Shown in pieces: positions 24,901 to 50,178 of a stretch of 64,000 nucleotides of DNA. The stretch comes from Armatimonadota bacterium (GTDB lineage Bacteria > Armatimonadota > HRBIN16), in NCBI GenBank assembly GCA_026003195.1, contig BPGU01000003.1, forward strand, positions 124,001 through 188,000, read 5' to 3'. How positions within the stretch are numbered: the first letter of the stretch is position 1; each line of letters begins with the position of its first letter. The notes below the pieces were generated by a model that had not been told where the DNA came from, did not search any database, and worked only from the letters and a program-made list of their open reading frames with translations. Made by a program: the position numbers and the translations under genes.

Positions 24901-25121
24901 CGTGGGTGCCTGCTGGCAGACGGCGCATCGAGCTGGCAACCTCTTGGGGTGAGCACAAAGTGCTGGAGCAGCCTGTGGCACGCTACGAGACGACCGTGGT
25001 GGAGGTGCCATGTGTGGTCGCGCAACTCCGTGCGCCTGAGCAGCCCGCGTCGATACGCCTGCAGCTGGTCACCGAAGAGGGTAAACTCGTGCCCTTTGGG
25101 GAGCGACGCCTCTTGAAATAG
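21930..25121 (+). CDS. Large secreted clan-A glycoside hydrolase-like protein
   Basis: I place the start at GTG 21930, because GGAGGAGGTG lies just upstream and the next residues form a signal peptide (IIMMSVSAVVSAAP); this gives 1063 aa. The N-terminal half contains beta-rich domains. From about residue 500 a (beta/alpha)8 barrel resembles GH5/GH42-type enzymes: FYAHGINFWPLW, then YDIAWEPVWGN with the probable acid/base Glu, FVSPEGYS, and VFWAEFGATIYP with the probable nucleophile Glu. A C-terminal Ig-like domain (LRLRVTVMNTGEATW) ends it. The specificity cannot be read. It follows the rhamnosidase by 103 bases, so the pair may be one operon. Confidence 0.75.
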   Translation: MNYLTWAIIMMSVSAVVSAAPTIGVLQWGGRQATALQNAIRRAEPGVQVVLVSVEDFAGGRLPQGVSLLVVPEADRLPATVGEPLQRWVHSRKEVLFISNEPPLGTWLYRAGERWLERQQALHMNGSWRALWQGQPAAANAWRRATNAPEIDTSWSVVDTPHGKGYRLSVPRLTGWCTYDLRLDQPFRRGETLMRFWAKGDKNTRALSIEWRERDGSRWVATVPLNEGWKHYALEPSDFRYWRDNPSQGRGGAGDLLKPENAVELSIGLAHSFASYPANTPLEATIADMQVGRLLQALPSVPSFRLEGIAPWYKFYRDSRGRWCSVMRHRGVGIGGQASGRRIVLPLGERACLFLSAKGDTEGSVWAWLPTAEANTPSLSALLQPMRRGWHLLRAGTERFGIWKEQKIAYGAEVVNWRGEPVTLRLNAELSAPGKPGVSQQMSVRLQPGERQRVLFPEADLSEGEWRIRITAHATDGTRDELEHLFHVIGKPAAMPPMRVRGGQFVQGDKPFYAHGINFWPLWIAGQEPDEYWGHWLGPEQYDPHEVERALRIAKQVGFNVLSIQYTSLSHAPQLVDFLERARRHGMYINLFITAAHPFGFDPPLLRQLIEAARIPQWDNIFAYDIAWEPVWGNHAERKRFDSAWREWIIEQYGSIENAERDWGYSLPREEGEVTNPTDEQILNDGEWRRMVAAYRRFQDDYVNRAYWRVVRFIRSLDDRHLIGVRTGWGGNGNPWGDWRMPYDLLAGAPFLDFVSPEGYSLDQNWQNFRAGGFITAYARWAGNGKPVFWAEFGATIYPNTTAERIAYQRNVYEWMYRMIEESRADGSAGWWFPGGYRTTEDSDYGIIHPDGTLRPAAQVAQRWASRLAQLPATPDEREIHTITFDRDLHPRGFSQVWARHRDEYLKAVESGKRVELRTEGTGTTSENVPLVAVGNVPCNGNNPPKYLNAQILRVEAVRADGGASEIEPDQPLPPDTVRLRVTVMNTGEATWVPAGRRRIELATSWGEHKVLEQPVARYETTVVEVPCVVAQLRAPEQPASIRLQLVTEEGKLVPFGERRLLK

Positions 25122-25141
25122 TATACAAAATATGGTATAAT
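25113..25141 (+). promoter_or_regulatory. Sigma70-type promoter with structured leader
   Basis: TTGAAA (25113-25118), 17 bases, TATAAT (25136-25141). The leader to the ATG at 25265 holds CCTGTGC (25143-25149) paired with GCACAGG (25172-25178), and GGGGC (25196-25200) paired with GCCCC (25216-25220). The -35 overlaps the end of the preceding glycosidase gene. Confidence 0.65.
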
Positions 25142-25264
25142 TCCTGTGCTATGGCACGTGGTCATGCCCAGGCACAGGTGTGGTTCTCCGGCTGCGGGGC
25201 GTCACCGTGGTGGGTGCCCCGCTGGGGAGGGTTGTTCAGCTTCATGCAGGAGGGAGAAACAACG

Positions 25265-25786
25265 ATGCCGTTCAACTTTAAGCGCTATCTGATCAAGGTG
25301 CAGGGTGGGCGTTACTACCTGCCTGTGGCGGCACGGCTGGTGTGGTTCCGCGAGGAGCATCCCGGCTGGCGCATTGAAACGGAGCCTCTGGAGATCGATG
25401 AAGAGCGTGGCGTCGCCATCTTCCGCGCGCGCGTCCTCGATGAAGACGGTAACGTGATTGCTACTGGTACCAAGATGGAGACGCGCGAGGGCTTCGCGGA
25501 CTTCGTCGAGAAAGCGGAGACCGGAGCCATCGGTCGTGCGTTAGCGGTGGCGGGTTTCGGCACGCAGTTTGCGCCGGAGCTGTCGGAGGGCGGGGTAGTG
25601 CATCCGGTAGACGCTCCTGTGACGGCGTTGCGCGAGCGCGAGGAGGCAACCCGCGAGCTGCGCTGTTCTGACTGCGGCGCCGCCATCACCGAGGGCGTGT
25701 ATAAGCTCTCCGAGAACCGCTACGGTCGTCCGCTATGCGCCAGCTGCCAGAAGAAGCACACCCCGCTTGCCCAGCCGAAGGCGTAG
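25265..25786 (+). CDS. Single-strand-annealing-like (Rad52/Erf-type) protein with zinc ribbon
   Basis: ATG 25265 follows AGGAGGGAGAAAC and gives 173 aa. The first 115 residues include GGRYYLPVAARLVWFREEHP, IFRARVLDEDGNVIATGTK and the diagnostic KAETGAIGRALAVAGFGTQF. This pattern appears in phage and plasmid proteins of the Rad52/Erf/DUF1071-like ssDNA-annealing group. A C-terminal zinc ribbon follows, with two CxxC pairs (CSDCG and CASCQ). No phage genes lie nearby, so it seems a chromosomal, perhaps domesticated, version. It has its own promoter and 120-base leader. The DNA-annealing role is inferred from the motif only. Confidence 0.6.
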   Translation: MPFNFKRYLIKVQGGRYYLPVAARLVWFREEHPGWRIETEPLEIDEERGVAIFRARVLDEDGNVIATGTKMETREGFADFVEKAETGAIGRALAVAGFGTQFAPELSEGGVVHPVDAPVTALREREEATRELRCSDCGAAITEGVYKLSENRYGRPLCASCQKKHTPLAQPKA

Positions 25787-25834
25787 GGAGCAGATGGCAC
25801 ATAGAGTGACAATACTGTTCTCATGCTGGACGAA

Positions 25835-50006: not shown

Positions 50007-50178
50007 GACCGACTAGCTATATCGGATACGCATCACGTGTCCGAAGCGATGAGAGCGCCAGTGTCTATCCTGCTGCACTGGCATTCCCCACCGACGCCAC
50101 CGCCTGGCGATACGCAGACCAATCCTGTTGTGTTGTCGGAACTGGAGTGGCAACACTTCACCTCATAGAAAATATAGC
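49975..50178 (-). ncRNA. Putative structured ncRNA or attenuator leader upstream of HNH gene
   Basis: A transcript from the promoter at 50185-50214 would start near 50178. Its first bases GCUAUAU (50172-50178) pair with AUAUAGC (50016-50022) just before the terminator, closing the molecule. Inside are hairpins GTGTTG/CAACAC (50151-50156 with 50130-50135), CGCCA/TGGCG (50095-50099 with 50105-50109) and GCCAGTG/CACTGGC (50057-50063 with 50076-50082). No protein frame on this strand is convincing. It could be an independent small RNA or a riboswitch-like leader controlling HNH. It does not match 6S, SRP, tmRNA or B12 patterns that I can recognise. Confidence 0.55.

Follow-up and report, generated by a model that had tools for sequence, protein, structure and literature searches.

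Most of what is known of Rad52-type proteins comes from eukaryotes and phages, and to our knowledge DdrA of Deinococcus, a genus whose damage genes are reportedly controlled by DdrO/IrrE, is the studied case among bacterial chromosomes. DdrA is also the closest precedent for the gene described here, which lies in a 64,000-nucleotide stretch of Armatimonadota DNA (the window). In the sections of its description drawn on here, DdrA is a chromosomal, Rad52-like and damage-induced protein that bound ssDNA ends, annealing not being detected, and that acts partly beside RecA, a double mutant being more sensitive than either single mutant (PMC515370). The gene in the window is like that of DdrA, a protein tied in the same sections to survival of DNA damage (PMC515370), in that its product is apparently a bacterial relative of the Rad52 superfamily, and in being chromosomal and vertically kept, as judged by synteny, presence in the genus, gene neighbourhoods and dN/dS. 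It is unlike DdrA in that PF04098 is absent from the Pfam matches listed, a C-terminal ribbon is present and, in some relatives, the gene lies behind recA with a LexA-type box. The comparison with phage single-strand annealing proteins (SSAPs) is similarly mixed; the core of the predicted model matches the solved 80alpha Sak and Red-beta structures and the phage relatives lie in recombination/replication modules, but there is no sequence-level membership with Sak, Erf, Red-beta or RecT, and in cells the main lineage is a resident one that in many cases has the ribbon. Yeast mitochondrial Mgm101 has a similar fold (Z 7.2) and one phage relative is annotated mgM101-like, but the present protein is bacterial, has the ribbon and has no sequence match to it. 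PHROG families 27776, 11717 and 23738 are homologous to its N-terminal domain, but are phage proteins without assigned function. In the open-access literature searched we found no paper on Armatimonadetes and Rad52, no Rad52-type single-strand annealing protein in a recA operon, no Thermus-phage Rad52-type annealing protein and no report linking this gene to recA or lexA.

The gene occupies an open frame at 25265-25786 of the window (confirmed by ORF and translation check) and encodes a 173-amino-acid protein. The features of the locus are the following.

25113..25141, + strand: sigma70-type promoter by consensus, with -35 box TTGAAA at 25113-25118, a 17-bp spacer and extended -10 box TATAAT at 25136-25141
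25117..25788, + strand: 672-bp unit duplicated at C3:123.3 kb, 96.4% identical
25121..25139, + strand: candidate operator GTATACAAAATATGGTATA, a rare 19-bp element common to the lexA and, more weakly, the recA promoters of the genus (pattern partly post hoc)
25148..25264, + strand: leader, its start placed from the -10 box, without supported RNA structure
25248..25253, + strand: ribosome-binding site AGGAGG, identical in nine aligned sequences from eight species
25265..25786, + strand: coding sequence of a Rad52-like predicted ssDNA protein with a C-terminal ribbon, dN/dS 0.022-0.045 between species
25265..25576, + strand: N-terminal Rad52-like domain, amino acids 1-104 (AlphaFold2 model, PDB matches)
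25511..25567, + strand: family motif KAETGAIGRALAVAGFGTQ, amino acids 83-101, near-invariant in 24 family members
25664..25747, + strand: four-cysteine zinc-ribbon-like segment (Cys 134, 137, 158 and 161), cysteines constant in nine genus sequences

The ATG at 25265 is the better-supported start, given the AGGAGG upstream at 25248 that is identical in the nine genus sequences. An alternative in-frame start at 25151 would give 211 amino acids; this extension was rejected as coding, since it has an in-frame stop in genome G018, is missing from G054 and shows no concentration of its substitutions at third positions. Across the first 110 codons the dN/dS ratio is 0.022-0.045 in six between-species pairs, which indicates strong purifying selection, and two copies in the window's own genome differ with dN 0 and dS 0.065. 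The original prediction had started from a KAETGAIGRALAxxGFGTQ-type motif, and this is indeed present in the open frame as KAETGAIGRALAVAGFGTQ.

By sequence the protein belongs to none of the curated SSAP families (Rad52_Rad22, Erf, RecT and others). A Pfam scan to E 10 gave no curated SSAP family and no Rad52_Rad22 (PF04098) for the window protein, nothing in Pfam or NCBIfam was above cut-off for it, and for 24 family members NCBIfam gave no SSAP family and Pfam, to E 1, gave neither an SSAP family nor PF04098 among the matches listed (25 of 27 families). A PDB sequence search returned 0 matches at E<=10, so the link to solved SSAPs is structural only. An AlphaFold2 model built from a 24-sequence alignment has a mean pLDDT of 80.5, with blocks of 93-98 over amino acids 21-90, 89 over 91-100 and values below 50 at residues 105-129; it contains a RAD52-type core of strands 36-45, 50-58 and 64-73 followed by a helix at 80-95. 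Human RAD52 is the first Foldseek match in the PDB (E 1.5e-3, probability 1.00), and rows 1-8 of the VIA realignment are all RAD52, with Z 7.5-8.8, rmsd 2.8-4.3 A and 79-104 residues aligned; the top Z of 8.8, over 104 residues, is middling, and the model is a predicted one. After RAD52 come a dsRNA-binding domain (Z 7.2, row 9), yeast Mgm101 (7.2) and phage 80alpha Sak (6.8), with Red-beta at 5.7; VIA Z scores of 7-9 are middling, and the tool warns that values below 8 may reflect just a common arrangement.

The PHROG homologies to the N-terminal domain are at the level of sequence, with E 3.8e-18, 1.8e-15 and 2.6e-6 for families 27776, 11717 and 23738, respectively. Among viral structure models the best matches are mostly unnamed phage proteins, and the named relatives there include a 405-amino-acid protein called exodeoxyribonuclease 8 and others called ERF or Rad52/59/22. 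The likeness to annealing proteins proposed from the sequence is thus borne out at the level of predicted fold by RAD52, Mgm101 and Sak, and the protein probably resembles a Rad52-superfamily annealing or end-binding protein, although it is in none of the curated SSAP sequence families tested. In the part of it considered here, a structural survey of 117.5 million unannotated proteins puts the number of SSAP candidates in the thousands (PMC11783212); the fold assignment is therefore perhaps not new in itself.

The C-terminal segment has the arrangement CxxC...CxxC, in agreement with the two-CxxC ribbon originally described as fused to an annealing-like protein. Its Pfam matches to zf-dskA_traR and Zn_ribbon are below cut-off, and against PHROGs the C-terminal match to phrog_13782 has E 4.3e-9 and that to the DksA-like phrog_54 E 0.0019. 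A ribbon is present in 39 of 63 Armatimonadota sequences, some of which are cut by contig ends. By a loose pattern, a four-cysteine ribbon-like segment is also found in 8 of 82 non-redundant viral relatives (IMG/VR loci L073, L075, L081, L082, L101, L115, L119 and L122), and the ribbon may therefore predate domestication, having arisen in phages.

Homologues of the gene are present in eight of the ten genomes of the window's genus, including seven of the seven high-quality ones. The two without a match are G087, which is 80% complete, and G080, in which the promoter element lies some 100 bp short of the end of a contig, where we infer that the gene is cut. The upstream gene, of a 1069-amino-acid type, is common to six of the seven other genus genomes that have the gene, and in the seventh, G072, a short contig aligned solely over the unit itself. 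Pfam assigns eight of nine neighbouring proteins in the window to ordinary metabolic or surface families, gives none for the 1069-amino-acid protein, and finds no phage family among the nine. The gene had been described as sitting away from phage genes, and genus synteny and this neighbour scan agree for the window copy. The check that had been proposed, for prophage genes around the relatives' copies, gave ordinary chromosomal settings instead, and phage genes do not adjoin the gene in the window genome and its relatives.

More widely, 64 of 291 Armatimonadota genomes match, about 60 of them with the main domain (in G021, G035, G056 and G254 the match, as read, is weak or mostly confined to the ribbon, and they are left out of this count). 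In a midpoint-rooted FastTree tree of 151 sequences, 45 of the 61 Armatimonadota sequences fall with two viral tips in a clade of 47 (support 93) that covers families f1, f2, f3, f5, f11, f13, f22, f31, f36 and f39, and a second set of 16 (12 from f24, four from f13) forms a separate group with one viral tip (support 92). This grouping points to one main cellular lineage and probably to more than one entry. Ktedonobacteria sequences nest among viral ones in the tree. A ribbon-less relative has the same place in the chromosome at six Ktedonobacteria loci (L018-L023), near a gene named by eye as enolase-like; this phage family seems to have settled there independently.

Neighbourhoods were examined at 64 loci; L219 has no usable match, which leaves 63 with the gene. 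Ordinary neighbours are frequent among these, namely ksgA at 16, a cell-wall-binding-type gene at 19 and purA at 10 (one member was checked for ksgA and one for the wall gene, and purA was named by eye), and a pseudouridine-synthase-type gene, checked in one case, lies beside the gene at nine f39 loci. In six genomes of three families, however, recA is directly upstream on the same strand with gaps of 54-120 bp: G134 (f36), G123, G052 and G133 (f22), and G111 and G143 (f13). Five of these come from the 64-locus survey and the sixth, G133 (L296), was found separately; two scanned recA neighbours are RecA by NCBIfam, above cut-off (E 3.8e-168 and 4.1e-165). At four f22 loci lexA follows about 1.3 kb downstream of the matched domain, one of them confirmed by NCBIfam, and one scanned member of the genes lying between is yneA-like, below cut-off. 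In the window's own genome recA and lexA are on other contigs and in its genus the gene is far from both, so any link to DNA damage there rests on the promoter element described below.

The f22 lexA promoter contains CAAAC-N4-GTTTG, exact at three loci and with one mismatch at a fourth, which we take to resemble the Bacillus-type box. CRAAC-N4-GTTTG is found 5' of the gene or of the recA pair in six of seven f22 genomes (G086 lacks it), starting 56-78 nt upstream of the gene (G027, G062 and G138) or 29-38 nt upstream of the recA start as read (G133, G123 and G052). From a count of 7-22 distinct sites per genome, the expectation for any one stretch of 300 bp is about 0.0006-0.0014 sites; the genomes represent five genera, four with the box, and are not independent. 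There is no genome-wide excess of CRAAC-N4-GTTTG, with 141 matches against 134 for the control on both strands of the seven genomes. Upstream of recA, the f13 genomes G111 and G143 have box variants that differ at one or two positions, and G134 of f36 has only a poor match. Across all families, 10 of 63 upstream regions match CAAAC-N4-GTTTG with no more than two mismatches, of which L195 and L222 are artefacts of genes cut by contig ends and were dropped; at seven loci of the window's genus the box is absent within 250 bp upstream with up to two mismatches allowed. In six of seven f22 genomes the promoter of the gene or its operon carries a LexA-type box, a predicted LexA site.

The promoter in the window matches the consensus at 11 of 12 positions and has TG before the -10 box, whereas shuffled sequences average 0.1 sites, and it is kept across the genus in an alignment of nine sequences from eight species. 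It deserves the description "near-consensus" that it had been given. The genus lexA promoter is near-invariant and in most species has GTAGACCAATTGTAGTATA, where the window promoter has GTATACAAAATATGGTATA. In 122,581 bases of the window's own genome GTAKACMAAW occurs only at lexA and at two copies of the gene. When GTAKACMAAW-N4-KTATA was sought with up to one mismatch in ten genomes, 38 sites were found against five for the reversed control: ten at lexA, eight at recA, nine at this gene (including two own-genome copies and G080), three between gap-type and HNH genes and eight elsewhere. Because the pattern itself comes from the promoters of lexA and of the gene, one letter having been relaxed to take in recA, the 38-site result is only partly independent. 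The looser GTAKAC-N8-KTATA has 43 sites in the ten genomes against 13 in the control, but it was chosen post hoc and its TATA overlaps -10 boxes, which leaves the genus operator suggestive only. A matrix made from the ten lexA promoters alone, run over about 119 kb on both strands, scored the gene copies at 19.0, tied second, at the best of 13 offsets, behind a site at window position 50171 and with recA weak at 9.0; at other offsets the copies are fourth or lower, or not listed. Genome G032 has a 1-nt deletion within the element. These sequence comparisons suggest that a genus promoter element, a candidate operator, links the gene to lexA and, more weakly, to recA. The window's genus and f22 are not alike in the recognition region of LexA, and a difference in operators would be in keeping with this. 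TTGAAA...GTATAC...TATAAT was also tried as the operator and dropped; it finds only two gene copies and is uninformative on a regulon.

Database searches gave 24 phage records, none covering more than 80% of the query, and an IMG/VR profile search gave 197 encoding stretches, of which 80 were kept; plasmid relatives amount to two weak matches. A relative in a Thermus P23-45-like phage is annotated as an ssDNA binding protein and is followed by helicase, resolvase and primase genes; we found no experiment on this relative in the part of the phage's description consulted (PMC11437467). A Caudoviricetes relative, the one named mgM101-like, is followed by an exonuclease and SSB, and Lactobacillus phage LL-Ku has SSB and resolvase genes near its homologue. 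On one IMG/VR contig Gam-like, replication-initiator and DnaB-like genes come after the relative, and on another SSB and a resolvase-like gene are close to it. Phage relatives are thus found beside exonuclease, SSB or other recombination genes.

We consider it reasonably likely, with a probability of roughly two-thirds, that the gene encodes a domesticated phage Rad52-superfamily protein that is induced by DNA damage through LexA and binds or anneals ssDNA beside RecA. Its computed basis is the resemblance in fold, the purifying selection, the gene's residence in the chromosome, its adjacency to recA outside the window's family and the f22 LexA-type boxes, and from these we infer the annealing activity, the damage induction, the partnership with RecA and a role for the ribbon. 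A phage-derived gene would have become a resident Armatimonadota DNA-repair gene, and damage would lead, through LexA control, to production of the protein, in some families from the second gene behind recA and elsewhere, as in the window's genus, from a promoter of the gene's own. Bound to the ssDNA of damaged ends or gaps, the protein would either anneal complementary strands without RecA or help RecA to load, with the ribbon perhaps adding a DNA or protein contact. The "housekeeping" function first suggested for it stands in that the gene is a resident chromosomal one, and may be refined to recA/lexA-linked repair of DNA damage; the competence-related role offered beside it finds no support in these results. 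A more specific history, to which we would give somewhat less than even odds, makes the protein an SOS-controlled RecA partner whose gene was originally the second one of a recA operon near lexA and afterwards moved away under a LexA-controlled promoter of its own, with a change of operator as the DNA specificity of LexA changed; if true, this would be an SOS-controlled bacterial counterpart of the Rad52-Rad51 pair.

The same fold would also suit a resident protein that binds ssDNA or protects ends, does not anneal and is independent of RecA and SOS, the nearness to recA being historical. The Rad52-like fold without a sequence match, the precedent of DdrA, for which the sections cited report that annealing was not detected (PMC515370), and the other neighbours at most loci (ksgA at 16 of 63, purA at 10 of 63, the pseudouridine-synthase-type gene at nine f39 loci) are consistent with this, but recA adjacency in three families and the f22 boxes that precede the gene even where recA is not adjacent (G062, G138 and G027) argue for a connection with SOS and make such a protein unlikely. 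The conserved position in the genus, the dN/dS of 0.022-0.045, the absence of phage Pfam families among nine window neighbours and the clustering of 45 of the 61 Armatimonadota sequences in a clade with just two viral members (support 93) are likewise hard to reconcile with a phage recombination gene captured only recently, or the remnant of a prophage, that still serves phages. The many viral relatives (197 IMG/VR stretches and 24 phage records), the grouping with phages of a degenerate own-genome relative on contig C5 that lies in a RecA-like/PolI-family block, and the mobility suggested by three near-identical copies in one genome speak for a gene of that kind, which is already disfavoured for the window copy and seems to us quite improbable. 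It is very improbable, finally, that the N-terminal domain functions otherwise, for example in RNA binding or as a SnoaL-like fold, its Rad52 likeness being a common alpha-beta arrangement. SnoaL-like proteins are among the first Foldseek matches and dsRNA-binding domains reach VIA Z 5.5-7.2, but the latter mostly cover 65-80 residues against about 100 for RAD52, Mgm101 and Sak, and both the phage and the cellular gene neighbourhoods point to DNA recombination.

Returning to the LexA-linked repair protein, the position behind recA in three families and the LexA-type boxes in one suggest that bacteria can keep a Rad52-like protein alongside RecA. The route by which annealing proteins of phages turn into repair genes of the cell can be tested on this model, which also offers a role for a large family of phage proteins at present labelled "unknown function" (phrog_27776 and its relatives).

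The window's own genome has three copies of the gene, where genus relatives have one each. Copy 1, in the window, has a left flank common to the genus relatives. Copy 2 (C3:123318-123836, 99% identical), 165 bp beyond the left edge of the window, consists of the bare 672-bp unit, with part of the -35 box lost. Copy 3 (C3:768019-768474, 95%) lies 580 kb to the right, has its N-terminus replaced and a right flank like that of G044, and is joined to pieces of the window copy's upstream gene. A mobile cassette was considered and rejected, the relatives being single-copy and the site behind the 1069-amino-acid gene being the genus-wide one; no terminal repeats were seen by eye at the ends of the 672-bp unit, and its second copy reads better as a duplication in a rearranged genome than as a mobile element. 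We also note a degenerate relative with one stop at G000:C5:19687-19974 (L004, L070), in a phage-like replication block whose genes, all on one strand, include one of the PolI family and a RecA-like one that scores below the RecA cut-off; this is the C5 sequence mentioned above, and it groups with two phages in the FastTree tree (support 97).

A leader with two hairpins and a possible autoregulation through it had also been predicted, and neither is supported. In single-sequence folding the leader is no more stable than its shuffles (z = 0.36, 124 of 200 at least as stable), the RNAalifold covariation term of -0.17 is negligible, pair changes are within the shuffle range (the observed values are reached by 44 to 119 of 500 shuffles), Rfam has no match at E<=1, and most of the leader is absent in G054.

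In three genus members (L289, L290 and L293) a site like the recA element lies between two genes named by eye as HNH-endonuclease-type and gap-type, and the window has a similar site at about 50171; the HNH gene is perhaps another candidate for the damage response. The GC-rich part of the leader (25196-25233), which contains a stop in G018 and is absent in G054, is well conserved as DNA in seven of eight species, and in most species reads in frame as CGASPWWVPRWGG or close to it.
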